DNA from: Streptomyces sp. SLBN-31
GTDB taxonomy: Bacteria > Actinomycetota > Actinomycetes > Streptomycetales > Streptomycetaceae
Length of the DNA: 64,000 nucleotides
NCBI RefSeq assembly: GCF_006715395.1
Contig: NZ_VFNC01000001.1
Span: 1,922,001 to 1,986,000, forward strand
Direction of reading: 5' to 3'
Shown: in pieces, positions 10,464-23,537 of the stretch
Layout: each line of letters begins with the position of its first letter
How positions within the stretch are numbered: position 1 is the first letter of the stretch
Position numbers and translations under genes: made by a program
The notes under the pieces: model-generated
What the model saw: only the letters and a program-made list of their open reading frames with translations
The model's database searches: none
Told to the model about the DNA's origin: nothing

Positions 10464-12317
10464 TCAGCCGTCGATGCGGTGCGTGCTCCAGAACGACGTC
10501 AGGTCCGTGGTCGTCGCGGCCTGCGCCGCCGCCTTGAACTCGGCCGTGGTCGACACGCCGTACCAGTGCGAACCGGCGTAGTCCTTCAGCAACTTGGTCA
10601 TCGCGGTGTCGCCGATCAGCCGGCGCAGGTCGTGCAGGGCGCACTTGCCGTAGCCGTAGACGACGGTGGAGTAGCGGGAGGAGTGGGCGTCCCAGTACGC
10701 CATGGAGTTGGTGATCTTCTCCGCCGACGATGCCCAGGAGACGCTGTTCCAGCAGCTGGTGCCGGTCTTGCCGAGGGCGAGGTCGGTGGCGTAGTCGGTG
10801 AACGCCTCGTCCAGCCAGGGGCTGTTGTACTCGTCGTCGCCGACGATGCCGTACCACCACTGGTGGCCGATCTCGTGGGTGAGCGCGGTGGTGCTGACGA
10901 GGTCGAGGACGAAGCCGGGGTACTCCATGCCGCCGAACCAGTAGTTGTTGTCGATGACGGCGTCCAACTCCCCGTAGGGATAGGCCCCGAAGCGCGCGGC
11001 GTGCGCGTCGACGGCCGTCTTCGCCGTGCTGAGCATCGACTGGGCGTCGGAGGAGCTGATGTTCGAGACGGAGTAGACGTTGATCGCGGTGCCGGCGGTG
11101 GAGGTGCCGGAGATCTTGCTGAACGGCCCGGCCGCCCACGCGAAGTCACGCACCTTGGAGGCGGTCGCCGTGGTGACGGTGCGTCCGCTGGAGCCGGGGG
11201 TGTCGACCGAGGTGCCGGTGGCCGGGACCAGCAGGGTGCTCGGGTGGTCGAGGGTCACCTTGAAGTCGGCGGCCAGGGAGTAGAACGACTCGCCGTTGTT
11301 CGTGTACGGGTCCAGGTGCCAGCCGGCGCCGTCCTTGACCGCGAGGACGGGCAGCGCGTTGCCGATGAAGCTGAACGCCCCGTCGTGGCCGAACCGGTCG
11401 GCGCCGCTGGGCACGGTGATGCCCAGGTCGAAGCCGATCGTGGCGGACTGCCCCTGCGCCAGGGGTGCGGGCAGGGTGACGGGCAGGGCCGTGCAGCCGA
11501 CGGACGGCGAACCGGCCGTACCGCCACTGACGTTGGTGACCGTGATCGGCATCGCGTCGCAGGTGCCGTGGTAGTTGTCCCACAGCCGCAGGTACACCTC
11601 GTTCAGCGCCGTCGAGGAGGCGTTGGTGAAGGTCGCGCTCTCGTGGCCGGTCCAGACGGTACCGCTGGTGTTGCTGCTCAGGCTGACGGTGTACGAGGGT
11701 GCGGCCGGGGTCCGCGTCGAGTCGGCCGGCGGGGTCGTGCCGCCCGAGGTGTCGAGGGCGACGTCGTCGAGGACGAAGCTGGTCTGGAGGCTGGAGTCCT
11801 CGGTGCCGGTGAAGGCGAGGCTGACCGTCTGGCCCGCGAAGGACGAGACGTCGAGGGTCTTCTTGACGTACCCGGTGTTCTTGTCGAGGTTCGAGTAGGT
11901 GGCCAGGGCCGTGCCGCCGATCTTCGCCGTCAGCTTGTCGTAGGCGGTCGAGGAGGTCGTCTCGGTGGTGTCGATGTGGAGCCAGAAGGACAGGGTGGCG
12001 GTGGAGCAGCCGGACGGGATCGTGACGCTCTGGGAGAGCGTGTCCGTGTGCGTGGCGCCGGTGCCGTCCAGCCAGGCGTAGCTCGTGCCGCCGTGCGGGG
12101 TCTCGCCGGAACGGCTGGTGATCACGCTCGTGGACGACTGCGTCCACGGTGAAGTACCGCTCTCGAAGCCGCCGTTGGCGACGACCTGGGCCGGGGTGCA
12201 GGCGGCCGCGGCGTCGGGCGCGGCGGTCGCCGGACCGGCGGGGAGAAGGGACACCCCGGCCAGTGCGGTGACGGCGAGGGCGCGCACGGCGACGGATCTG
12301 TGGGGGATGGTTCTCAC
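10464..12317 (-). CDS. Secreted M1-family (gluzincin) metallopeptidase with N-terminal beta domain
   Basis: 617 residues from a GTG placed after AAAGGAG. Residues 1-32 are a signal peptide ending near AGPATAAP. About 40-180 is a jelly-roll-like domain (VVANGGFESGTSPWTQ ... FVLDDVALD), like carbohydrate-binding or P-type modules in exported hydrolases. A Thr/Pro linker leads to the M1 peptidase domain (about 200-617). That domain has GGMEYPG, the counterpart of the M1 exopeptidase GAMEN motif, and the zinc site HEIGHQWWYG starting near residue 481, with the third ligand in NSPWLDEAFTDYA. It is expected to act outside the cell as a zinc aminopeptidase. Confidence 0.9.
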   Translation of the reverse strand: MRTIPHRSVAVRALAVTALAGVSLLPAGPATAAPDAAAACTPAQVVANGGFESGTSPWTQSSTSVITSRSGETPHGGTSYAWLDGTGATHTDTLSQSVTIPSGCSTATLSFWLHIDTTETTSSTAYDKLTAKIGGTALATYSNLDKNTGYVKKTLDVSSFAGQTVSLAFTGTEDSSLQTSFVLDDVALDTSGGTTPPADSTRTPAAPSYTVSLSSNTSGTVWTGHESATFTNASSTALNEVYLRLWDNYHGTCDAMPITVTNVSGGTAGSPSVGCTALPVTLPAPLAQGQSATIGFDLGITVPSGADRFGHDGAFSFIGNALPVLAVKDGAGWHLDPYTNNGESFYSLAADFKVTLDHPSTLLVPATGTSVDTPGSSGRTVTTATASKVRDFAWAAGPFSKISGTSTAGTAINVYSVSNISSSDAQSMLSTAKTAVDAHAARFGAYPYGELDAVIDNNYWFGGMEYPGFVLDLVSTTALTHEIGHQWWYGIVGDDEYNSPWLDEAFTDYATDLALGKTGTSCWNSVSWASSAEKITNSMAYWDAHSSRYSTVVYGYGKCALHDLRRLIGDTAMTKLLKDYAGSHWYGVSTTAEFKAAAQAATTTDLTSFWSTHRIDG

Positions 12318-12567: not shown

Positions 12568-13518
12568 TCAGCCGCGATGTGTCGAGAGGTGGCCGGTCTC
12601 GCCCTGGGCGGTTTCGATGCCGTTGTGGAGGTCGGTGGCCGCTTCGAGGGCCGCGCCGGCCGAGAGGGTGACGCAGGCCAGGAGCAGGCAGGCCAGGGCA
12701 CGCGGGAGGAGCTGGCCGACGGGCGCGGAGCGGTTCAGCAGGGCGGTGACGCGGCGTGGGACCGGGCCCGCGGTGGCCGTCAGGGACAGCCGCGGCCGGG
12801 GCGCGGGGCCCGCCGCACCGGCGGCGAGCGCGGCGCGGCCGACCGCGCGGGCGGTCAGGGCGCGGTCGCCGGTCGCCCGCGCCGCGGACTCGTCGGCCCA
12901 GCGCTCCAGGGCGTACGACAGCGGCGCCCGCAGGCCGCGCAGGGCGGGATGCAACGCCACGGCCAGCTCCGCGCCGGCGAGGAAGAGATGGTGGCGGCCC
13001 ATGAGATGGGCGCGCTCGTGCGCGAAGAGCACCTCACGCTCCCGGGCGCTGAGGGCGCGCAGCATCCCGGTGGTCACCACGATGCGGCCTGGCCGGCCGG
13101 GCAGCGCGTAGGCGTCGGGACGTACGTCGCGCCGCACCCACAGGTCGCCCGCGCCCGGCTCGCACGCGCACTGGCGATGGGCGGCGCGCAGTTCCCGCAG
13201 ATGGCGGCGGGCCCGCCAGGGCACCAGCACGCCCAGGCCGGCCAGCGCGAGGGCGGCCAGGACCGCGGCCGGCACGGTGGCGGGCGAACCGTCGCCGAGC
13301 AGGTGCGGGGACAAGTGGCCGAGCGCCGCCACGAAGGGCAGCCGCAGGGCGCCGTCCAGCGCGAGCAGCGCCAGCGCCGCCGTACTGGAACCGGCGAGGA
13401 CCAGCGCCAGGGCGGTCAGCGCCCACGCGGCCGTCCGCGGCGGCAGCAGCTCGGCGCCACGCCGGGCCACGGGCACCGCGAGCAGCGGCACCAGGAGCGG
13501 GAGCCACACGGCGTACAT
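12568..13518 (-). CDS. M56-family (BlaR1-like) membrane metallopeptidase, copy 1
   Basis: 316 residues, starting at the ATG at 13518 behind GGAGGAA. Hydrophobic helices lie near residues 4-22, 33-55, 90-110 and at the C-terminus (about 275-295). The zinc motif HERAH begins at residue 167 within AREREVLFAHERAHLMGRH, matching M56 and M48 proteases. It has no penicillin-binding sensor domain, unlike BlaR1. In known BlaI/M56 systems the peptidase inactivates the partner repressor. The partner gene is 52 bp upstream on the same strand (13571-13996). A paralogue occurs at 17931-18818 in mirror-image arrangement. Confidence 0.87.
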   Translation of the reverse strand: MYAVWLPLLVPLLAVPVARRGAELLPPRTAAWALTALALVLAGSSTAALALLALDGALRLPFVAALGHLSPHLLGDGSPATVPAAVLAALALAGLGVLVPWRARRHLRELRAAHRQCACEPGAGDLWVRRDVRPDAYALPGRPGRIVVTTGMLRALSAREREVLFAHERAHLMGRHHLFLAGAELAVALHPALRGLRAPLSYALERWADESAARATGDRALTARAVGRAALAAGAAGPAPRPRLSLTATAGPVPRRVTALLNRSAPVGQLLPRALACLLLACVTLSAGAALEAATDLHNGIETAQGETGHLSTHRG

Positions 13519-13570
13519 CACAGGGTTCCTCCAGAGACCGCCGTCGCGCCGGACGACTCCGAGCGGCCGG

Positions 13571-13996
13571 TCACGCGGTGTCGTCCGCGCCGGCGGCACC
13601 GTCCGCCAGCAGACCGCGCAGCAGCCGCTCGTCCTCGGGGCTCAGATCGGACACGAAGCGGGCCAGGACGGTGCCGCGGTCCCGGTCCTTGTCGAGTTCG
13701 GCGTGCATACGGCGGGCGGTGAGGCCGGGGGAGTCCTGGGTGGGGGCGTAGGCGTAGCCGCGCCCGGAGCGTGCCCTGGTCACCACGCCCTTGGCGTGCA
13801 GCCGGGTGAGAATCGTGGTGACGGTGGTGCGGGCCAGTCCGTCGCCGAGCTCCAGCTGGACGGCGCCGGGGGTGAGCGGACCGTCGGCCGCCCACAGCGC
13901 GGCCAGGACGCTCGCCTCCAGCTCGCCCGCCGGCCGTCGTTCCGGGCGCCCGTCGTCCGGGCCGTCGAACGGCTCGTCAATCTGCCCGTGGGGCAT
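13571..13996 (-). CDS. BlaI/MecI-family winged-helix repressor, copy 1
   Basis: 141 residues from the ATG at 13996 (GAGGAG seven bases upstream). The N-terminal half is the MecI winged helix: GELEASVLAALWAADGPLTP, then VQLELGDGLARTTVTTILTR with the recognition helix, and a wing in GRGYAYAPT. The C-terminal helices are the dimerisation part that an M56 protease cleaves in characterised systems. It heads an operon with the M56 gene. Two tandem 18-bp dyads lie directly upstream, in the region shared with the divergent DedA gene. It probably represses itself and the envelope genes on the other side. Confidence 0.92.
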   Translation of the reverse strand: MPHGQIDEPFDGPDDGRPERRPAGELEASVLAALWAADGPLTPGAVQLELGDGLARTTVTTILTRLHAKGVVTRARSGRGYAYAPTQDSPGLTARRMHAELDKDRDRGTVLARFVSDLSPEDERLLRGLLADGAAGADDTA

Positions 13997-14020
13997 GGGA
14001 ACGCTCCTCGACACTTATTC

Positions 14021-14057
14021 GTCTACAGTTCAGTAGACGGTCTACATGACTGTAGTC
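14021..14057. promoter_or_regulatory. Two tandem BlaI-type operators in a divergent promoter
   Basis: GTCTACAGTTCAGTAGAC (14021-14038) and GTCTACATGACTGTAGTC (14040-14057) are two 18-bp dyads in the same orientation, centred 19 bp apart, separated by one G. Both have the CTACA/TGTAG-like arms known for BlaI-family operators (TACA...TGTA). They lie 25 bp upstream of the BlaI start and 70 bp upstream of the DedA start, so one bound repressor array could control both directions. The dyads are seen directly; the assignment to BlaI is inferred from family and position. Confidence 0.72.
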
Positions 14058-14126
14058 GCCAGGCGCGGGCCGCCGCCCGCTCCTTCCACGTTCAGTACGA
14101 GTTCCAGTATGAGAGGGGTCGCCCGC

Positions 14127-14792
14127 ATGGCAGCTGCCCAGTTCGCCGTGGCCCAAGCGGTGAACGTCCTGGACGCGGGGTCCCTGCTGTCCGCCTTCGG
14201 CGCAATCGGCGTCGCCGCGGTGCTGTTCGCCGAGACCGGCCTGCTGGTCGGCTTCTTCCTGCCCGGGGACTCGCTGCTGTTCACGGCGGGGCTGCTGTGC
14301 GCGAACGGCGTCCGCGGCTCCGTGCACCTCTCGCTCGGGCAGGTGCTGGCCGCGGCCGTGGTGGGAGCGCTGCTCGGGGCGCAGACCGGGTACTGGATAG
14401 GGCGTCGCGGAGGCCGTGCGCTGCTGGCGCGCAGCAGGGCGAGGAAGCTGCACGAGGGCGCGGCCCGGGCCGAGGAACTGCTCGCGCGGTACGGCCACGC
14501 GAAGGCCGTCGTGCTGGCCCGCTTCGTGCCGGTGGTGCGCACCGTACTGAACCCGCTGGCCGGCGCACTGGACGTGCCGGTGCGGGTTTTCACGCTCTGG
14601 CAGGTGGCCGGCGGCCTGGTGTGGACGATCGGTCTCGTGCTCGGCGGCTACGCCCTGGGCTCCTCGGTTCCGAACGTCGACCGCTACCTCCTTCCCATGG
14701 TCGCCGTCGTGGTCCTCGTTTCCCTGACCCCGCTCGCTCTCGAGGCACGCCGCGCGCGTGCCCGCCGCGCCTCTTCGGAGGTCTCCTCATGA
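14127..14792 (+). CDS. DedA-family membrane protein
   Basis: 221 residues, start chosen at the ATG after GAGAGGGG. DedA signature features: FAETGLLVGFFLPGDSLLFTAG near residues 30-55 (acidic re-entrant motif), GAQTGYWIGRRGG, then a conserved Arg in LARFVPVVRTVLNPLAGAL, and C-terminal transmembrane helices. DedA proteins act in envelope integrity, and the superfamily includes undecaprenyl-phosphate flippases. Its stop overlaps the start of the PAP2 gene (ATGA), so the two are translationally coupled: a potential lipid-carrier flippase with a lipid phosphatase. Confidence 0.92.
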   Translation: MAAAQFAVAQAVNVLDAGSLLSAFGAIGVAAVLFAETGLLVGFFLPGDSLLFTAGLLCANGVRGSVHLSLGQVLAAAVVGALLGAQTGYWIGRRGGRALLARSRARKLHEGAARAEELLARYGHAKAVVLARFVPVVRTVLNPLAGALDVPVRVFTLWQVAGGLVWTIGLVLGGYALGSSVPNVDRYLLPMVAVVVLVSLTPLALEARRARARRASSEVSS

Positions 14793-15406
14793 CTGCCCTC
14801 GCGTTCGGCGGCGCCTCGGTCGACGGCGGCCTCTACCTCTGGATCACCGGTCTGGCCCTTGACTCGCCGCACGTCGTGGACACCACGGTCGCCGTCTGGT
14901 CCGACTACGGCCTCGCCCTGTTCGGCGTGCTGATGCTCGCCGCCTGGTGGCGGGCCCGCGGCGCGGGGCAGGCCCGGATGGTCCGGTCGCTGGCGGCCCC
15001 CGTGATCGTCGTGCTCTGCTACGTCGCCGACGTCCTGGTCAAGTCGGCCGTCGCCGAGAACAGACCCTGCCGCATGCTGCACACCGTCACCGTCGAGGCG
15101 TGCCCGGCGGTGGGCGACTGGTCCTTCCCCAGCAACCACGCGGTGATCGCCGGAGCCGCGGCGGTGGTCGTGGCCCTGACGGACCGGACGCTGGGCCGGG
15201 TCGCGGCCGTGGCCGCCCTCCTGATGGCCGTCTCCCGGGTCTGGATCGGCGTGCACTATCCGCACGACGTCGCGGTGGGGCTCGCGTTCGGCGCCCTGCT
15301 CGCGTGGCCGCTGATGCTGCTGGCGGACCGCGGGGCGCCCTTGGTGGAACGGGCGGCCGGGACCAGGTTCGGGGAACTGGTGACGGGCGCGCAGAGCGGT
15401 GGCTGA
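14789..15406 (+). CDS. PAP2-family membrane phosphatase, copy 1
   Basis: 205 residues, overlapping the DedA gene by 4 bases behind GGAGGTCTCCTC. The three phosphatase motifs are present in order: KSAVAENRPC (KxxxxxxRP), FPSNHA (PSxH) and RVWIGVHYPHDVAVG (SRxxxxxHxxxD, here in SRVWIGVHYPHD). There are about five hydrophobic helices. Such enzymes dephosphorylate undecaprenyl pyrophosphate or phosphatidic-acid-type lipids at the membrane. Coupling to DedA suggests undecaprenyl or other lipid carrier recycling (inference). Confidence 0.91.
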   Translation: MTALAFGGASVDGGLYLWITGLALDSPHVVDTTVAVWSDYGLALFGVLMLAAWWRARGAGQARMVRSLAAPVIVVLCYVADVLVKSAVAENRPCRMLHTVTVEACPAVGDWSFPSNHAVIAGAAAVVVALTDRTLGRVAAVAALLMAVSRVWIGVHYPHDVAVGLAFGALLAWPLMLLADRGAPLVERAAGTRFGELVTGAQSGG

Positions 15407-15537
15407 CCGCATGGCGCGGCCGGGTCGGTCGGAGCCGCCGACGAGCGCGGCCGCGGGTGCTGGTGCGGGGGAGCCGGGCGCGCGGTTCCCGCGCAGGTGA
15501 GAGGAGTCGTCGTGGGCGTCTGCGTCGAAGGTCCCGC

Positions 15538-16305
15538 GTGAACGAGGCGTGGCGGGCGGTGCGGTCCGGGACGGTCCGGGCCGGAGTCCTGTGTGCCGCG
15601 TTGTTCGGATGCCTCGCGGTCCTGGTGGGCGTACGGCACGGGTCCCCGCTGCCCGGGGACGGGGCCGTGCACACGTGGGCCATCGGACACCGGCCACCGG
15701 TCGCGCAGGCCCTCGCACGGGGCATCACCGCGACCGGGACGGGAATCTGGCCGTACCTGGTCGTCGCCGTGGCCGGGCTGATCGCGGGGCGGGACGCCGG
15801 GGAGCGGTTGAGGACGGTGCCGTGCGCCCTCGCCGTGCTGCTCGCCGGGCAACTGCTGCGAGAAGCGGTGATGGAGTCCTTCGCGCGGGCCAGGCCCGAC
15901 CCGGCCGACTGGGCCGCGTACGCCTCCGGGTACGCCTTCCCCTCCGGCCACACCACGACCTCCGCCCTCGCCGCGGGCCTGCTCTGCTGGGCCGTCACCC
16001 GCCGTTCGCGCCCCGACCTGGCGCGTACGACCTGTGTGCTCGCGGTGTGCTGGGCGGCCGCCGTCGGAGCGACCCGGGTCTACCTCGGCGTGCACTGGAC
16101 CAGTGACGTCCTCGGGGGCTGGCTGCTCGCCACCGCCTGGCTGAGCCTGTGCGGCTGGGGTCTGACCCGGTGGCGGCCGCGGTGGTGGCGGCCGGCCGGG
16201 GACTCCGGTCCGACGCCGCGGGACACCGAACCGCCGCGGACACCCGCGGCGCCCTCCCGGCCCTCACCGGAACCCCCGCCCGCGCCGACGTCCCCGGAAG
16301 ACTGA
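15538..16305 (+). CDS. PAP2-family membrane phosphatase, copy 2
   Basis: 255 residues from a GTG at 15538. Motifs: the first appears as ESFARARPDPADWA, the second as FPSGHTTTS and the third as TRVYLGVHWTSDVLGGW, with six or so transmembrane segments. The last about 45 residues are Pro/Thr-rich and presumably disordered. It follows the first PAP2 gene by 131 bp and ends 31 bp from the convergent LPG-synthase-like gene. The two PAP2 proteins are diverged, so they are unlikely to be a recent duplication. Confidence 0.9.
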   Translation: MNEAWRAVRSGTVRAGVLCAALFGCLAVLVGVRHGSPLPGDGAVHTWAIGHRPPVAQALARGITATGTGIWPYLVVAVAGLIAGRDAGERLRTVPCALAVLLAGQLLREAVMESFARARPDPADWAAYASGYAFPSGHTTTSALAAGLLCWAVTRRSRPDLARTTCVLAVCWAAAVGATRVYLGVHWTSDVLGGWLLATAWLSLCGWGLTRWRPRWWRPAGDSGPTPRDTEPPRTPAAPSRPSPEPPPAPTSPED

Positions 16306-16336
16306 GCCCCCGTCGACGACGCGAGCCGCCACCGCC

Positions 16337-17278
16337 TCACAGGGCCCTGGCGCGCACCAGCCCGCCCAGCACCAGCAACCCCGGCACCAGGGGAAGCCAC
16401 ACGGTCAGCAGCCGGTAGCCGATGACCGCCGACACGCTGACCCCCGCCGGCGCCCCGGCCGCCGTCAACGACCAGGCGAGCGCGGCGTCCAGGGAACCGA
16501 GCCCACCCGGGGTCGGCAGCAGTACGGCGGCGCTGCTCGCGGCGAGATACGCGAGGGCCACCCGCCCGGCCGGAAGAGGCACGTCCAGGGCCCGTACGAC
16601 GGCCAGGACGACGCCCGTGTGCAGCGCGGCGAACAGCAGCGAGCCACCCCACAGGGCCACCGCCCGCCCCGGACGCTCGTGCACACCGCGCACATCGGCC
16701 ACCGCGCAGGCCAGTCCGCGCCGCAGCCGGGTCCGCAGCAACAGGGCCGCACCGGCGACCGCCACCGCGGCCCCCGCGCCCACGAGCAGCGGCAACCGGC
16801 CCACCGCCGGCGCCCGCAGGGTCCCGGGCCAGGCCATGGCGAGCCCCGCGATCAGAGCACCCCGGACCACGGTGCCCGCCGCGCCCTTCACCGCGAGAGC
16901 CGTCGCGGCGCGGCCGGGCGGCAGTCCGCACCGCATCAGGAAGCGCACGTTGACCGCACCGGCGCCCAGTCCGGCGGGCAGCACGTGGTTCGCCGCGGAC
17001 GCAGCGAACTGCGCAGCCACCAGCCGGCGTACGGGCAGTGCCTCCCGTACCGCCCCCTGCAGCGCGAGCGCCGCGCATCCCCAGGTCAGCACGCTGAGCA
17101 GGGCGGCGAGCGACAGCCAGCCGCGGTCGGCGACGGCCAGCCGGTCCGCTCCCGCGTCCAGCACCGGCCAGTGCCGTACGGCGAGCCCCGCGGCCCCCGC
17201 TGCCACCGTGACCCCCAGCAGGCTCTGCCACGGCAGCCGCCGGCCGACACTCGTGGACGGGCCGGCCGGCGTGCTCAT
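16337..17278 (-). CDS. Lysylphosphatidylglycerol-synthase-like transmembrane protein (UPF0104)
   Basis: 313 residues, almost wholly hydrophobic with about eight predicted membrane helices. Landmarks are FAASAANHVLPAGLGAGAVNVRFLMRCGLPPGRA near residues 90-125 and LLPTPGGLGSLDAALAWSL near 260. These match the integral-membrane flippase half of MprF/AglD-like proteins. The soluble lysyl-transferase half is absent, so it is likely a lipid flippase or transporter of unknown lipid. The start is chosen at 17278 because longer versions would run through the dyads upstream. It is divergent from BlaI copy 2, with the dyads between. Confidence 0.87.
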   Translation of the reverse strand: MSTPAGPSTSVGRRLPWQSLLGVTVAAGAAGLAVRHWPVLDAGADRLAVADRGWLSLAALLSVLTWGCAALALQGAVREALPVRRLVAAQFAASAANHVLPAGLGAGAVNVRFLMRCGLPPGRAATALAVKGAAGTVVRGALIAGLAMAWPGTLRAPAVGRLPLLVGAGAAVAVAGAALLLRTRLRRGLACAVADVRGVHERPGRAVALWGGSLLFAALHTGVVLAVVRALDVPLPAGRVALAYLAASSAAVLLPTPGGLGSLDAALAWSLTAAGAPAGVSVSAVIGYRLLTVWLPLVPGLLVLGGLVRARAL

Positions 17279-17365
17279 GCCCCGTTCCGAATCGCCGCGG
17301 ATGGCCGCTCCGGCGAGGGTGCGGAAGAGGCGGGGGACGTTCTCGTCATCCTCATCCCTCCCGGC

Positions 17366-17478
17366 CCTACAATCTGTAAGGTCCCGTTTCACCCTACAAC
17401 CTGTAGGTCGAGGAGACGCCGGAGGCGGGTAAGGGGCAGGTGCGAGTCGGTGACCGAGGGAACCTACGCACCGTAAGG
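17366..17478. promoter_or_regulatory. Three BlaI-type dyads before BlaI copy 2
   Basis: CCTACA-ATC-TGTAAGG (17366-17381), CCTACA-ACC-TGTAGG (17393-17407, perfect 6-bp arms) and CCTACG-CACC-GTAAGG (17463-17478, degenerate, ending 8 bases before the start codon). All share the TACA/TGTA core of BlaI operators and lie between the LPG-synthase-like gene and BlaI copy 2. Their flanks differ from the GTCTACA arms at 14021, so the two repressors may distinguish their sites. Confidence 0.65.
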
Positions 17479-17486
17479 TGGTGGCC

Positions 17487-17870
17487 ATGGCAGGCACGAC
17501 CCCTCGCGGCAGAGCCGAGCGACGCAGCCCCGGGGAGCTGGAGAGCGAGATCCTCGCCACCCTCTGGGCCACGGAACACGCCCTCACCCCCGCCGAGATC
17601 CAGTCCGAACTCGGCGACGGGCTCGCCTACAACACCGTGCACACCATTCTGCGCCGCCTGCACGACAAGGATCTCGTCCTGCGCGACGCCGACGGACGGC
17701 GCGGCGCCTACCGTCCCGTCAAGAACGCCGCCGAGATGACCGCCGAGGCCATGCATCGGGCCCTGGACCGCGGGCCCGACCCGATAGCCGCCCTGCAGCA
17801 GTTCGTGACCGGGCTGAGCCCCGAGGAGGAGAGCGCCCTGCGCCGGCTGCTGGGCGACGGCGGTGCGTGA
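17487..17870 (+). CDS. BlaI/MecI-family winged-helix repressor, copy 2
   Basis: 127 residues, ATG at 17487 with AAGG eight bases upstream. Winged helix: GELESEILATLWATEHALTP, then IQSELGDGLAYNTVHTILRR with the wing in GRRGAYRPV. The C-terminal part (ALQQFVTGLSPEEESALRRLL) parallels FVSDLSPEDERLLRGLL in copy 1, so the two are clear paralogues. It is followed after 60 bp by an M56 gene. Recognition-helix residues differ (LAYNTVHT versus LARTTVTT), consistent with distinct operators. Confidence 0.92.
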   Translation: MAGTTPRGRAERRSPGELESEILATLWATEHALTPAEIQSELGDGLAYNTVHTILRRLHDKDLVLRDADGRRGAYRPVKNAAEMTAEAMHRALDRGPDPIAALQQFVTGLSPEEESALRRLLGDGGA

Positions 17871-17930
17871 CGGGCCCGGCCGGCGCAGTCGTACGGCATA
17901 CGGGTTCAACGGCGGGACAGGAGGCGGCAC

Positions 17931-18818
17931 ATGAGGATCGACGTCTACACCCCGCTGCTGCTGTCGCTGCTGCTCGGCGTGGCCGGTCCGCGGCTCGCCA
18001 GGTTCGGGACGCCCGCGGCGGCGGCCCGTGCGCTGACCGGTGCCGCGGTGCTCACCGCAGGCGCCTGTCTGTGGGCCCTCGCGCTGCTGACCGCGACCCT
18101 GGCCGGCGAGGCCCTGCCGGTCGTCGCCCACGCCCGCGCCGGTGGCCGCGCGCTGCCCGAGCCGGTTCCGGACGCCGTGGCACTCCTCGCGCTTGTCGTC
18201 CTCGCGGTCGCCGTCGGCCGGATCCTGCGCGCGGTCCGGGCTCATCGCGCCACCCGCCGCACCCTGCGCCGGCTGTGCGAGGGCCACCCGCCCGGCACCG
18301 AACTCGTTGTCGCCGCCTCGCCGCGACCCCAGGCCTTCGCCGTGCCCGGTGATCCGGGCCGGATCCTGGTCACCAGCGCCATGCTCGCCGCCCTGCGCCC
18401 CGCCGAACGCCGGGCCCTGCTCGCCCACGAGCGCGCCCACCTCGCCCACCGGCATGCGTTCTACGTCCACGCGGCGACCCTGGCCGCGGCGGCGAACCCG
18501 CTGCTCCTGCCGGTCCGCGGGGCCGTCGCCTACCTGGTGGAACGCTGGGCCGACGAACAGGCCGCCGGCGCGGTCGGCGACCGCGGCACCACGGCCCGCG
18601 CCCTGGCCCGAGCCGCCCTGGTCTCCCACCGCGCCGACTGCGCCCTGCACTTCGCCGACCGCGCCGTCACCCGCCGCATCGCCGCCCTCCTGAGCACCCC
18701 ACCGCGCCGCCTGCGTCCCGTCGCCGCGGCCATCCTGACCGTGGGCGCCCTGGCCGCCCTGGGAGCGGCGGACGCCACGGGGGATCTACTGAGCCTGCTG
18801 ACGGGAGGGGCACTGTAG
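17931..18818 (+). CDS. M56-family (BlaR1-like) membrane metallopeptidase, copy 2
   Basis: 295 residues, ATG behind AGGAGG. Hydrophobic helices lie near residues 5-20, 28-55, 80-100 and 260-280. The zinc motif HERAH is at residues 166-170 in RALLAHERAHLAHRHAF. A conserved ERWADEQAAGAVGDR follows, as ERWADESAARATGDR does in copy 1. No extracellular sensor domain is visible. It is expected to cleave or otherwise relieve BlaI copy 2. Which signal it senses is unknown. Confidence 0.87.
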   Translation: MRIDVYTPLLLSLLLGVAGPRLARFGTPAAAARALTGAAVLTAGACLWALALLTATLAGEALPVVAHARAGGRALPEPVPDAVALLALVVLAVAVGRILRAVRAHRATRRTLRRLCEGHPPGTELVVAASPRPQAFAVPGDPGRILVTSAMLAALRPAERRALLAHERAHLAHRHAFYVHAATLAAAANPLLLPVRGAVAYLVERWADEQAAGAVGDRGTTARALARAALVSHRADCALHFADRAVTRRIAALLSTPPRRLRPVAAAILTVGALAALGAADATGDLLSLLTGGAL

Positions 18819-20212: not shown

Positions 20213-20572
20213 TCACTCCCCGGCGTCACTGATCCCCAGCCGCAGGTGCTCGACGTGGTACACGGCCTGGTCCAGGAGCTCGGCGACATGGTGGTCGTGC
20301 AGCGCGTAGACCACCGACCGCCCGCGGCGCTCACCGACGACCAGGCCCAGGTTCCGCAGCAGCCGCAACTGGTGCGAGCACGCGGACTGTTCCATCCCCA
20401 CCTCGGCCGCCAGCTCGGTGGCCGGCAGCGGCCCCTCGCGCAGTCGTGCGAGGATCAGCAGCCTGGAAGGTGTCGACAGGGCCTGAAGCGTGGTCGCCAC
20501 CTTGGCGACGTTGCCCGCGTCCAGACGGACGCGCTCGGTGACGTCCTGCGCGGCGGCGGCTCCATGACCCAT
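20213..20572 (-). CDS. ArsR/SmtB-family repressor
   Basis: 119 residues. Winged helix: LQALSTPSRLLILARLREGP, then ATELAAEVGMEQSACSHQLR and LGLVVGERRGRSVVYALHD. The single Cys in the recognition region (QSACSHQLR) is near where alpha-3 metal sites occur. The helix lacks the ELCVCDL pair, so the classical arsenic site is not met. A C-terminal DHHVAELLDQAVYHVEH supplies His and Asp/Glu residues that could form an alpha-5 metal site. First gene of a two-gene unit with the MFS transporter. Confidence 0.9.
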   Translation of the reverse strand: MGHGAAAAQDVTERVRLDAGNVAKVATTLQALSTPSRLLILARLREGPLPATELAAEVGMEQSACSHQLRLLRNLGLVVGERRGRSVVYALHDHHVAELLDQAVYHVEHLRLGISDAGE

Positions 20573-20717
20573 GCGGGCATCCTACCCAGCGGGCGCCGGC
20601 GGCCGAAGGGCCGTTCACGCGCATGGTGCTCCCGGTGATCCGCGCCGTCCCAGGGCAGCAGAGGTTCATGTCGGATTCTCGCCAGCCCGGCCCGCGCCCA
20701 TCGCCGATGCTGGACCC

Positions 20718-22202
20718 ATGCAGAACGGGATGCACACCGACCGAGAGCGCTGCGTACGGGCCGTCCAGTCCAAGGACGCCCGCTTCGACGGCTGGTTCTT
20801 CACGGCAGTCCTGACGACCCGCATCTACTGCCGGCCCAGCTGCCCGGTCGTCCCGCCCAAGCCCCGCAACATGACCTTCTACCCGAGCGCCGCCGCCTGC
20901 CAGCAGGCCGGGTTCCGCGCCTGCAAGCGCTGCCGCCCGGACACCAGCCCCGGCTCCCCGGAGTGGAACCAGCGCGCCGACCTCGTGGCCCGGGCGATGC
21001 GCCTGGTCGCCGACGGTGTCGTCGACCGCGAGGGCGTCCCCGGCCTCGCCGCCCGCCTCGGCTACAGCACCCGGCAGATCGAACGCCAGCTGCTCGCCGA
21101 ACTCGGCGCGGGCCCGCTGGCCCTCGCCCGCGCCCAACGCGCCCAGACGGCACGCCTGTTGATCGAGACCACCCCGCTCCCCATGGCGGAGATCGCCTTC
21201 GCGGCCGGCTTCTCCTCGATCCGCACCTTCAACGACACCGTCCGTGAGGTCTTCGCCCTCTCCCCGAGCGAGCTGCGCGCCCGCCTGCCGAAGAACAGGA
21301 ACCCGGCGACCACGCCCGGCACCCTCGCCCTCCGCCTCCCCTTCCGTACCCCGCTCAACCCCGACAACCTCTTCGGCCACCTCGCCGCGACCGCCGTACC
21401 CGGCGTCGAGGAGTGGCGCGACGGCGCCTACCGCCGCACGCTGCGCCTCCCCTACGGCCACGGCATCGCCTCCCTCACCCCGCAGCCGGACCACATCGCC
21501 TGCCGCCTCACCCTCAGCGACCTGCGCGACCTCCCCGTCGCCATCAGCCGCTCCCGCCGCATGCTCGACCTTGACGCCGACCCGGTCGCGATCGACGAAC
21601 AACTGCGCGCGGACCCTCTGCTCGCCCCGCTGGTCGACAAGGCCCCCGGCCGGCGCGTCCCACGCACCGTCGACGAGGCGGAGTTCGCCGTACGGGCGGT
21701 CCTCGGCCAGCAGGTCTCCACGGCCGCCGCCCGCACCCACGCCGCCCGCCTGGTCACCGCCCACGGCGATCCGGTGGACGATCCCGAAGGCGGTCTCACC
21801 CACCTCTTCCCGACCCCCGAGGCCCTGGCCGCCGTCGACCCCGAGACCCTGGGGATGCCCCGCAGCCGCCGCACCACCTTGACCACCCTCGTCGCTCAAC
21901 TGGCCGCCGAAGAGATCCACTTGGGCCCGGAGAGCGACTGGCCCCAGACCCGCGCCCGCCTCCTCGCCCTCCCCGGCTTCGGCCCCTGGACGACGGACGT
22001 CATCGCGATGCGCGCCCTCGGCGACCCCGACGCCTTCCTCCCCACCGACCTCGGAATCCGGCGCGCCGCACAGGAGTTGGGCCTGCCCTCCACCCCGGCG
22101 GCCCTCACGGCCCGCGCGGCGGCCTGGCGGCCCTGGCGGGCGTACGCGGTCCAGTACCTGTGGGCGACCGACAGCCACCCGATCAACTTCCTCCCGGTGT
22201 AA
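20718..22202 (+). CDS. Ada-AlkA fusion: methyl-phosphotriester sensor plus 3-methyladenine DNA glycosylase II
   Basis: 494 residues. N-terminal Ada zinc domain (about 10-85): RFDGWFFTAVLTTRIYCRPS, FRACKRCRPD; the four Cys bind zinc and one accepts methyl from DNA phosphotriesters. An AraC helix-turn-helix follows (about 95-190; LAARLGYSTRQIERQL, FAAGFSSIRTFNDTVRE). The C-terminal half is AlkA (AlkA_N, then the HhH-GPD glycosylase with GQQVSTAAARTHAARLV, LPGFGPWTTDVIAMRALGD and the catalytic Asp in that segment). It removes alkylated bases. It lies 20 bp before an Ogt methyltransferase gene, so together they cover phosphotriester, N-alkyl and O6-alkyl damage. A second in-frame ATG lies at 20730. 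Confidence 0.92.
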   Translation: MQNGMHTDRERCVRAVQSKDARFDGWFFTAVLTTRIYCRPSCPVVPPKPRNMTFYPSAAACQQAGFRACKRCRPDTSPGSPEWNQRADLVARAMRLVADGVVDREGVPGLAARLGYSTRQIERQLLAELGAGPLALARAQRAQTARLLIETTPLPMAEIAFAAGFSSIRTFNDTVREVFALSPSELRARLPKNRNPATTPGTLALRLPFRTPLNPDNLFGHLAATAVPGVEEWRDGAYRRTLRLPYGHGIASLTPQPDHIACRLTLSDLRDLPVAISRSRRMLDLDADPVAIDEQLRADPLLAPLVDKAPGRRVPRTVDEAEFAVRAVLGQQVSTAAARTHAARLVTAHGDPVDDPEGGLTHLFPTPEALAAVDPETLGMPRSRRTTLTTLVAQLAAEEIHLGPESDWPQTRARLLALPGFGPWTTDVIAMRALGDPDAFLPTDLGIRRAAQELGLPSTPAALTARAAAWRPWRAYAVQYLWATDSHPINFLPV

Positions 22203-22222
22203 GAAAAAAGCAGGGACCTCCA

Positions 22223-22705
22223 GTGAGACGACACACCGTCACCGACAGCCCGTACGGCCCCCTCACCCTCGTCGCCGAGGACGGCACCCTCTGCGGTCTC
22301 TACATGACCGACCAGCGCCACCGCCCACCACAGCAGACCTTCGGCGACCGTGACGACAGCCTCTTCGGCGAGGCGCGGGAGCAGCTGAAGGCCTACTTCG
22401 CGGGCGAGTTGAAGCAGTTCACCCTCCGACTCCACCTCCACGGAACCCCGTTCCAGCGCACCGTCTGGGACCAGCTCCGCCGCATTCCCTACGGCGAGAC
22501 CCGCTCCTACGGCGAACTCGCCGACGCCCTCGGCAACTCGGGCGCCTCCCGCGCGGTCGGCCTCGCCAACGGCAGGAACCCGATCGGCATCATCGTCCCC
22601 TGCCACCGCGTCGTCGGCGCCGACGGCAGCCTCACCGGCTACGGCGGCGGCCTGCCCCGCAAACGCCGACTGCTGGACTTCGAACGGGCGTCGGCCCTCT
22701 TCTAG
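22223..22705 (+). CDS. ogt: Methylated-DNA--[protein]-cysteine S-methyltransferase
   Basis: 160 residues, GTG start behind AGGGA. The helix-turn-helix PYGETRSYGELADALGNSGA and the active-site IIVPCHRVVGADGSLTGYGGG are intact, with the methyl-accepting Cys in PCHRV. It repairs O6-methylguanine and O4-methylthymine by irreversible transfer to that Cys. It is the second gene of an alkylation-damage pair with the Ada-AlkA fusion (20-bp gap), and is probably induced with it. Confidence 0.94.
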   Translation: MRRHTVTDSPYGPLTLVAEDGTLCGLYMTDQRHRPPQQTFGDRDDSLFGEAREQLKAYFAGELKQFTLRLHLHGTPFQRTVWDQLRRIPYGETRSYGELADALGNSGASRAVGLANGRNPIGIIVPCHRVVGADGSLTGYGGGLPRKRRLLDFERASALF

Positions 22706-22777
22706 CGCCGACCGCGCCGACCGCGCCGACCGCGCCGACCGCGCCGACCGCGCCGACCGCGCCGACCGCGCCGTCCG
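22706..22777. repeat. 9-bp tandem repeat, 8 units
   Basis: CGCCGACCG repeated eight times without interruption. Seven units are identical and the last has an A-to-T change. It begins at the base after the ogt stop and ends 1 bp before the stop of the convergent sirtuin gene. The array has a multiple-of-three unit but lies outside both reading frames. It is likely variable in copy number between strains through slippage. Confidence 0.9.
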
Positions 22778-22778
22778 C

Positions 22779-23537
22779 CTACGAAAGCGGACGCACAGGA
22801 CCGTCCCCGCCCCCATCGCCCAGCGTGCGCAGCAATTTCGGCAGGGCGGTGCCGATCGGCTCCCGGATCACCTCGTCCGCGATCTCGTCGTACGGCGTCG
22901 GCTCGGCGTTGACGATGACGAGCCGCGCGCCGTGGTCGGCCGCGACACCGGCGAGTCCGGCGGCGGGCTGCACCTGGAGACTGCTTCCTACGGCGACGAA
23001 CACCTGGCACGCCTTGGCGATGGCGACAGCCTGGCCGAGGACCTCCGGGTCGAGACGTTCGCCGAACATCACGGTCGCCGACTTCAGGACCCCGCCGCAC
23101 TGCAGGCAGGCCGGGTCCGCCTCCCCGGCCTCGACCCGGGCCAGGGCGTCCTCCATGGACCCACGGGCGCGGCAGCCCGTGCACACCACCTGCCGTGCGG
23201 TGCCGTGCAGCTCCAGCACCTTGCGCGCGGGCATCCCGGCGAGCTGGTGCAGCCCGTCCACGTTCTGCGTGATCACCCGCACCGGCACCCCGGACCGCTC
23301 CAGCTCGGCCACGGCCCGGTGCGCCGCGTTGGGTTCGGCCCCCAGCGCCCGGCTCTCGAGCCGCATCAGCCACGACCGCCGCCGGATCTCCGGATCGCCC
23401 ATGTAGTACTCGTACGTCACGAGCTTCTCGGCCTCCGGGTCCCGCCGCCACAGCCCGTTCGGCCCGCGGTAGTCGGGAATGCCGGAGTCGGTGGAGATAC
23501 CTGCGCCGCTGAGGACGGCGACGAGGGGCTTGGACAT
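22779..23537 (-). CDS. SIR2-family NAD-dependent protein deacylase
   Basis: 252 residues. All sirtuin motifs are present: LSGAGISTDSGIPDYRGPNG near the N-terminus, TQNVDGLH with the catalytic HGT (LELHGTARQVVC), and two Cys pairs for the structural zinc (VCTGCR and ACLQCGG). VMFGERLD and VGSSLQVQPAAGL follow. The enzyme removes acyl groups from lysine using NAD+, yielding nicotinamide and O-acyl-ADP-ribose. A macro-domain enzyme able to process that product type is encoded at 9787 and ADP-ribose enzymes at 24017-25611. Confidence 0.94.
   Translation of the reverse strand: MSKPLVAVLSGAGISTDSGIPDYRGPNGLWRRDPEAEKLVTYEYYMGDPEIRRRSWLMRLESRALGAEPNAAHRAVAELERSGVPVRVITQNVDGLHQLAGMPARKVLELHGTARQVVCTGCRARGSMEDALARVEAGEADPACLQCGGVLKSATVMFGERLDPEVLGQAVAIAKACQVFVAVGSSLQVQPAAGLAGVAADHGARLVIVNAEPTPYDEIADEVIREPIGTALPKLLRTLGDGGGDGPVRPLS

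Follow-up and report, generated by a model that had tools for sequence, protein, structure and literature searches.

Two BlaI-type repressors with distinct predicted operators at candidate lipid-carrier and lysyl-phosphatidylglycerol genes in Streptomyces

A stretch of 64,000 nucleotides from Streptomyces sp. SLBN-31 (NZ_VFNC01000001.1, positions 1,922,001 to 1,986,000; hereafter the window) encodes two BlaI-type repressors, BlaI-A and BlaI-B, each adjoining a membrane zinc peptidase, M56-A or M56-B, with envelope-lipid genes between them. Comparison across Streptomyces genomes shows two classes of predicted operator, each paired with its own BlaI clade, and recurrent candidate sites of both classes at remote genes, namely an undecaprenyl-diphosphatase gene (UppP) and a lysyl-phosphatidylglycerol (lysyl-PG) synthase gene. 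We consider it probable, though well short of certain, that the locus holds two insulated BlaI-M56 switches side by side, A serving undecaprenyl-phosphate recycling and B a lysyl-PG shield.

The eight genes are arranged as M56-A and BlaI-A (minus strand), DedA, PAP2a and PAP2b (plus), LPG_synthase_TM (minus), and BlaI-B and M56-B (plus). This confirms the layout seen by an earlier reading of the same DNA, the original prediction: both outward-pointing repressors match PF03965, are 53% identical over 120 amino acids and have start codons 3.5 kb apart, and Pfam finds PF09335, PF01569 twice and PF03706 in the genes between them. The genome (9.47 Mb in 3 contigs) contains three PF03965 matches, two of which are BlaI-A and BlaI-B.

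Two predicted operator classes and their repressors

In the divergent promoter of BlaI-A and DedA, A-type operators are predicted at 14021..14038 (GTCTACA-N4-(A)GTAGAC, one mismatch) and 14040..14057 (GTCTACA-N4-TGTAGTC, no mismatch), with centres 19 bp apart, a spacing that is conserved in relatives. The BlaI-B promoter carries predicted B-type operators at 17365..17381 (CCCTACA-N3-TGTAAGG) and 17392..17408 (CCCTACA-N3-TGTAGGT), also with conserved spacing, and a weak third one at 17462..17478, just 5' of the BlaI-B start, which matches a CTAC-N5-GTA[AG] core present at -22 or -23 in 22 of 22 BlaI-B loci. The general forms are GWCTACA-N4-TGTAGWC for A and CCCTACA-N3-TGTAGGG for B. Each repressor gene has such a TACA/TGTA-type dyad at its own promoter, and the two sets, which the original prediction had told apart by their flanks, differ by 1 bp in the half-site gap as well. 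In the window the A pattern is matched three times at up to two mismatches (two of these being the dyads) against 0.10 expected, a number reached in 0 of 100 shuffles, and the B pattern four times at up to three mismatches (again including two dyads) against 1.12 expected, reached in one of 100 shuffles. Taken by themselves, the counts in the window make the A dyads stand out more than the B dyads.

The operator classes were compared in a sample of 150 Streptomyces genomes, our own included (labels L and G denote loci and genomes). BlaI-B occurs in 22 genomes (74-100% identity, the next match being at 52%) and BlaI-A in 42 at 135 bits or more, a cut that we chose; all BlaI-B genomes except G086 also have BlaI-A. 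The 22 BlaI-B loci comprise our own, 11-13 kb around 20 others, and a contig-end locus of genome G014. The 350 bp upstream of the BlaI-B genes contain 25 exact CTAC-Nk-GTAG cores, N5 throughout, and an N5 core with at most one mismatch is present at all 22 loci. Two overlapping sets of BlaI-A loci were examined over the same upstream distance. The first, with 30 loci, yielded 44 exact cores, every one of them N6; the second, with 31, yielded 52, of which 51 are N6 and one is N7. Exact N6 cores occur in 29/30 and 29/31 loci of these sets, the exceptions being L095 and two Kutzneria loci. The gap between 7-bp half-sites was also varied from 0 to 8, at up to one mismatch, in 12 loci (149.7 kb) that contain both BlaI-B and DedA: the A half-sites matched 24 times, always with gap 4, and the B half-sites 14 times, always with gap 3.

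Both repressors score far above the PF03965 gathering score of 22.6. BlaI-A (13571..13996, minus strand) matches with an E-value of 5.5e-23 and 81.9 bits, in keeping with its clade and alignment, and BlaI-B (17487..17870, plus strand) with 4.5e-22 and 79.0 bits, likewise backed by alignment. MecI and penicillinase-repressor structures are among the matches of the repressor profile, which places the proteins in the BlaI/MecI family; among solved structures the top match is 2g9w (E 2.1e-18), an entry annotated as a conserved hypothetical protein, which we take to be the BlaI of Mycobacterium tuberculosis (Rv1846c). The stretch LARTTVTTILTRL of BlaI-A and the same region of BlaI-B, LAYNTVHTILRRL, presumably correspond to the recognition helix. 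In the alignment this putative helix is clade-specific, with LARTTVTT vs LAYNTVHT.

A local inverted duplication as the origin of the two repressors is disfavoured by the repressor tree, in which B groups with Pseudonocardiales, then with a third Streptomyces group and then with Kutzneria, apart from A. The tree rests on few columns and its bootstrap values are unsettled; B and the third group join at a fork with support of 90/78, and the row of our genome's third BlaI, with a branch of 5.11, was probably badly cut and is meaningless. The third group (L033-L056) often has GTAGTAG flanks, and in several of its members PAP2 or DedA genes lie in the same 20-kb locus.

Remote sites at UppP and lysyl-PG synthase genes

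Scanning our genome for GTCTACA-N4-TGTAGAC with at most one mismatch returned five sites, two of them the BlaI-A/DedA dyads of the window. Another ends 23 bp before a UppP/BacA undecaprenyl-diphosphatase gene, whose product is assigned to this family by PF02673 (E 7.5e-82, 275.3 bits) and by the NCBIfam model (379.1 bits against a cut-off of 308). To define the class we required at least 80% identity, checked all 67 genes listed, in 62 genomes, and accepted A sites with up to two mismatches within about 400 bp upstream. Such a site precedes UppP in 25/33 genomes with BlaI-A vs 2/29 without it (Fisher 2e-8, ignoring shared ancestry). Another UppP class, about 46% identical, has no A site in any of 16 BlaI-A genomes at up to three mismatches within about 440 bp. 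The sites usually lie at -40 to -45, and perfect ones are found elsewhere in G045 (-130), G064 (-350), G078 (-242) and G137 (-200); these unusual distances suggest more than one origin.

In seven loci that were fetched on purpose for this proximity (L246, L255, L257, L262, L270, L272 and L273), a BlaI gene belonging to this clade or a related one is no more than about 3 kb from UppP, and in six of the seven DedA or PAP2 is also near. DedA itself carries A-type sites in nine loci with no BlaI-A in the fetched stretch (L121, L123, L126, L127, L130, L131, L132, L133 and L139), which fits control in trans. As a separate observation, UppP in L256 (genome G103) is preceded by two dyads 19 bp apart, near TTCTACA-N4-TGTAGAA, with A-like spacing, other flanks and no BlaI-A.

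The two remaining A sites of our genome are poorer candidates. One lies 217 bp before an open reading frame of 590 amino acids of membrane type (a GT-C protein, C1:2852929) that Pfam assigns to no family; with an A site upstream in only 2/30 homologues it is kept as a weak target. The other, C2:2119935, falls inside a response-regulator frame, named by eye, and is treated as chance.

The corresponding scan for CCCTACA-N3-TGTAGGG also gave five sites at up to one mismatch, two of them in the window between BlaI-B and the flippase gene. Two others lie upstream of a 598-amino-acid LPG_synthase_C protein encoded 1.5 Mb away (C1:3457752-3459545; L090:3753-5546), which belongs to the lysyl-PG synthase family by PF09924 (E 5.8e-101, 337.9 bits against a gathering cut-off of 27.5). 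A short open reading frame between these two sites looks by eye like a small membrane protein. The fifth site, C3:761911, is inside a frame resembling a penicillin-binding protein, again named by eye, and is treated as chance.

Across the 150 genomes this synthase class (at least 75% identity, next match 68%) is present in 18/22 BlaI-B genomes and 0/128 others (Fisher 9e-20, shared ancestry again being ignored). In all 18 a B site with at most one mismatch lies within 200 bp of the matched synthase start, and in 16 of the 18 a second one (up to two mismatches) lies 460-780 bp upstream. Synthase paralogues lack such sites: a gap-3 B site was found in 0/12 paralogue loci, 11 of them from genomes without BlaI-B, where a single three-mismatch match had gap 2, and, in what is the stronger comparison, in 0/19 paralogue promoters from 19 BlaI-B genomes at up to three mismatches. 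The paralogue in our own genome (C2:2621531, 66% identical) also has no B site.

Lipid genes, peptidases and the proposed switches

The genes between the repressors are consistent with lipid-carrier functions. The DedA-family protein (14109..14792, plus strand; PF09335, E 2.9e-20) is likely an undecaprenyl-phosphate flippase: its acidic pair E42/D54, 12 residues apart, and the arginine pair of RFVPVVR, six apart, have the spacing that defines the UndP subfamily of COG0586. These residues were matched by spacing, without alignment to YghB, to Glu39/Asp51 and Arg130/Arg136, which the excerpted account in PMC10127716 places at re-entrant tips. The NCBIfam DedA and UptA models score 99 and 57 bits, both below cut-off; as an UptA equivalog the protein falls short, with 57.3 and 37 bits against cut-offs of 250 and 300. 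PAP2 phosphatases carry a three-part catalytic signature, which is complete in PAP2a (14789..15406, plus; overlapping the DedA stop; PF01569), with KX6RP, PSNH and SRX5HX3D, the SepP model reaching 61.5 bits, below its cut-off. In PAP2b (15538..16305, plus; PF01569; the GTG start is our choice) PSGH and TRX5HX3D are present and the first-motif lysine was not found. The LPG_synthase_TM protein (16337..17278, minus; PF03706, E 5.8e-26) corresponds to the flippase half of MprF only, the synthase half being absent; the MprF model covers residues 49-304 with 60.1 bits, below cut-off. A bifunctional MprF with both domains in one protein was not found: the flippase stands alone in the window, and the remote synthase lacks PF03706.

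At the BlaI-B promoter of 17/22 loci there is also a GT-C-like membrane gene of 500 codons (for example L122:2968-4467, L123 and L003-L006), which is missing from our own locus and from L121, L134, L136 and L140; in the BlaI loci L270 and L273 a similar gene follows UppP. The family has no Pfam match above cut-off and no meaningful PDB match by sequence. Its predicted model, to be taken with care at a moderate pLDDT of 68.1, fits best to ArnT (E 2.5e-5), and ArnT bound to undecaprenyl phosphate ranks third. An MprF fusion at the BlaI-B locus, considered for frames of 867-881 amino acids in L003-L005, was rejected: the synthase query gave no match, the upstream part resembles no known protein, and the GT-C-like gene overlaps it in another frame.

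Both peptidases have the membrane-embedded HExxH zinc protease part of the BlaR1 type. M56-A (12568..13518, minus; PF01435, 41.9 bits) has HERAH at residues 167-171 and hydrophobic segments, and aligns with M56-B (17931..18818, plus) at 38% identity; the two differ in the loop that connects hydrophobic segments two and three. No C-terminal penicillin-binding sensor was detected by Pfam, and the chains of 295 and 316 amino acids end 13 and 22 residues past the last hydrophobic segment. The original prediction labelled both proteins M56. Pfam assigns them to M48 (PF01435), and PDB-sequence profiles and NCBIfam likewise place them nearest M48/HtpX, while the best four structure matches of the predicted M56-B model are Staphylococcus aureus BlaR1 entries, with a fit that runs to residue 294. 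With Foldseek alone, M56-B had no match below E 0.001.

From these data we infer binding, repression, cleavage, signal and enzyme activities as follows. Dimers of BlaI-A would bind GWCTACA-N4-TGTAGWC, as a rule at a pair of sites 19 bp apart, and keep three targets repressed: the BlaI-A operon itself, the divergent DedA-PAP2-PAP2 operon and, acting in trans, UppP. Release of BlaI-A would increase the dephosphorylation of undecaprenyl-PP outside and the return of undecaprenyl-P to the inner leaflet. BlaI-B would bind CCCTACA-N3-TGTAGGG and repress its own operon, the divergent flippase gene and, in trans, the dedicated lysyl-PG synthase; upon release, the remote synthase would make lysyl-PG and the local flippase would flip it, a split MprF acting as a shield against cationic peptides. 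Since the peptidases keep the membrane and protease part of BlaR1 without the penicillin-binding sensor, the trigger may be stress on membrane lipids or lipid intermediates, upon which each M56 would cleave its BlaI and end repression. That relief is proteolytic, as the original prediction had it, we infer from the kinship with BlaR1. A bolder extension, offered only tentatively, is that sensor-less BlaR1-like proteases are direct membrane-lipid sensors spread through Streptomyces, M56-A reading how undecaprenyl-PP and undecaprenyl-P are balanced and M56-B reading the damage that cationic peptides or lipopeptides do to phosphatidylglycerol, each via its own membrane segments, with BlaI clades of different half-site spacing wiring separate scattered regulons (UppP, DedA and PAP2 vs synthase, flippase and the ArnT-like GT-C).

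Several findings weigh against two dedicated switches. Among the gap-control loci, L127 yields no B match at one mismatch or fewer, and the third BlaI group also has N5 cores, with other flanks, in 16/24 loci. UppP lacks an A site in 8/33 BlaI-A genomes (G014, G038, G096, G106, G107, G125, G141 and G148) and has one in two genomes without BlaI-A, G134 and, with other flanks, G103; one of the two genomes with an A site at the GT-C protein (2/30 homologues) is G112, which has no BlaI-A. The Fisher tests for the UppP site and for the synthase class take no account of phylogeny. The synthase class is missing from four BlaI-B genomes (G011, G014, G068 and G086), an adjacent M56-B from four loci (L134, L136, L137 and L138; genomes G011, G086, G016 and G080) and the flippase from the fetched stretch of five (L127, L136, L138, L140 and L141, leaving 17/22 with it), so that neither the BlaI-M56 pair nor the split MprF is obligate. 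Substrates are not assured either, as DedA, PAP2a and the flippase score under the NCBIfam cut-offs for UptA, SepP and MprF. Because BlaI-B persists without M56-B in G011, G016, G080 and G086, M56-A may also take part in its relief, or no protease may be required.

The first of these possibilities, separate DNA words with one protease input, in which either M56 releases both repressors and one signal gives two outputs, we regard as unlikely. The four genomes without an adjacent M56-B, whose best matches elsewhere are only 43-45% identical to it, are in its favour, as are the intact B sites at the synthase in two of them (G016 and G080) and the presence of BlaI-A in 21/22 BlaI-B genomes. It is at odds with the low identity and differing loop of the two peptidases, with the retention of a dedicated M56-B in 18/22 loci (in one of them in two frames) and with G086, in which BlaI-B occurs without BlaI-A. 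Slightly less likely still is relief of BlaI by a ligand or by titration rather than proteolysis, M56 doing another job such as membrane protein quality control, in which M48/HtpX peptidases act; the M48/HtpX profile matches, the missing sensor domain and the BlaI-B loci without a peptidase would agree with it, and the BlaR1-like structural model argues for a protease of the BlaR1 kind. A chance juxtaposition of ordinary BlaI-peptidase pairs and membrane genes, with plain autoregulatory dyads and remote sites that are noise, is disfavoured and very improbable: it would suit the rarity of the mirrored layout (4/22 BlaI-B loci) and the one in five near-perfect sites of each type that lies inside a coding frame, but the remote sites track the repressors across genomes (18/18 and 25/33), the within-genome paralogue controls are empty (0/19 and 0/16), and DedA carries A sites with no BlaI-A nearby.

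Known systems and local surroundings

The two proposed switches apparently put a known kind of device to two new jobs. Like BlaI/BlaR1 and MecI/MecR1 of Staphylococcus and Bacillus, they combine a PF03965 repressor with an adjoining membrane zinc peptidase, the modelled fit to BlaR1 reaching residue 294, and have TACA/TGTA-type dyads (S. aureus motif in the excerpt of PMC4549145); unlike them, they lack the penicillin-binding sensor, their sites lie at lipid-carrier and lysyl-PG genes instead of blaZ/mecA, and the dyad gaps are N4 and N3. M. tuberculosis BlaI, to which 2g9w links our repressors, differs in its targets, which include blaC, atpH, sigC and Rv1303 in the portions of PMC8265638 and PMC12565901 at hand. 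The related CopY/CopR repressors also use a TACA/TGTA dyad in which flanks matter, but, as excerpted from PMC7253601, with an N2 gap (TACANNTGTA) and in copper sensing. As in MprF, both lysyl-PG synthesis and flipping are expected here, but each is assigned to a gene of its own with B-type sites; S. coelicolor mprF (SCO3397) is described as depending on sigma-E in the excerpt of PMC6767563. With recycling by UptA/DedA, PAP2 and BacA/UppP the system shares the gene families and the DedA residue pattern of the UndP-flippase subfamily (PMC10127716, in part), and differs in the apparent joint control by one BlaI via a common operator. Open-licence literature, at the level of titles and abstract starts, yielded no BlaI control of DedA, PAP2, UppP or lysyl-PG genes in Streptomyces, which is weak evidence of absence.

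A link between A- and B-type outputs is made plausible by Burkholderia thailandensis, in which, according to the excerpt of PMC7835334, both aminoarabinose modification and bacitracin resistance require a DedA protein, and BacA homologues are partial suppressors. In the section of PMC4549145 available, S. aureus blaI mutants had altered cathelicidin resistance with unaltered surface charge, which gives no evidence for a link to MprF. The candidate regulons also suggest a possible function for BlaI-peptidase pairs with no beta-lactamase gene anywhere near. To our knowledge, the means by which bacteria gauge and adjust their undecaprenyl-phosphate pool are largely open; the excerpt of PMC9876793 indicates that the proteins transporting this lipid were named only recently. 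The readable operator of one repressor now leads to recycling genes of three kinds (DedA, PAP2 and UppP) and that of a second to a split MprF, and such operators make the sensing question accessible to reporter and deletion tests in harmless soil bacteria.

The original prediction had read the mirrored module as a two-input control unit for undecaprenyl or phospholipid handling. This interpretation is partly supported: across genomes the two repressor clades are each paired with an operator of their own, and either operator type recurs at a consistent set of lipid genes, and this core can be widened to distant genes. The module itself is a local arrangement, not a conserved unit, as BlaI-A was found in the stretch around BlaI-B in only 4/22 loci (our own, L122, L125 and L128). 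In G014 M56-B is divided between two contig ends, with BlaI-A and DedA on one of the contigs, and this may be a fifth case if the contigs abut. DedA-PAP2 accompanies BlaI-B in 13/22 loci. The contigs of named genomes (L002-L006) have both BlaI genes, and that of the closest named relative found, S. panaciradicis (L002), has all eight genes in identical order, ending inside M56-A.

The absence of a beta-lactamase was borne out for eight neighbouring proteins at 8.3-23.5 kb, the only part of the window that the scan covered; one of them, near 9.8 kb, is probably in the wrong frame and uninformative. Beside M56-A, at 10464-12200, lies an M1 peptidase with a weak MAM-like N-terminal part, and at 20213-23537 an ArsR regulator and an adjoining MFS transporter are followed by Ada-AlkA, O6-methylguanine methyltransferase and Sir2 genes.

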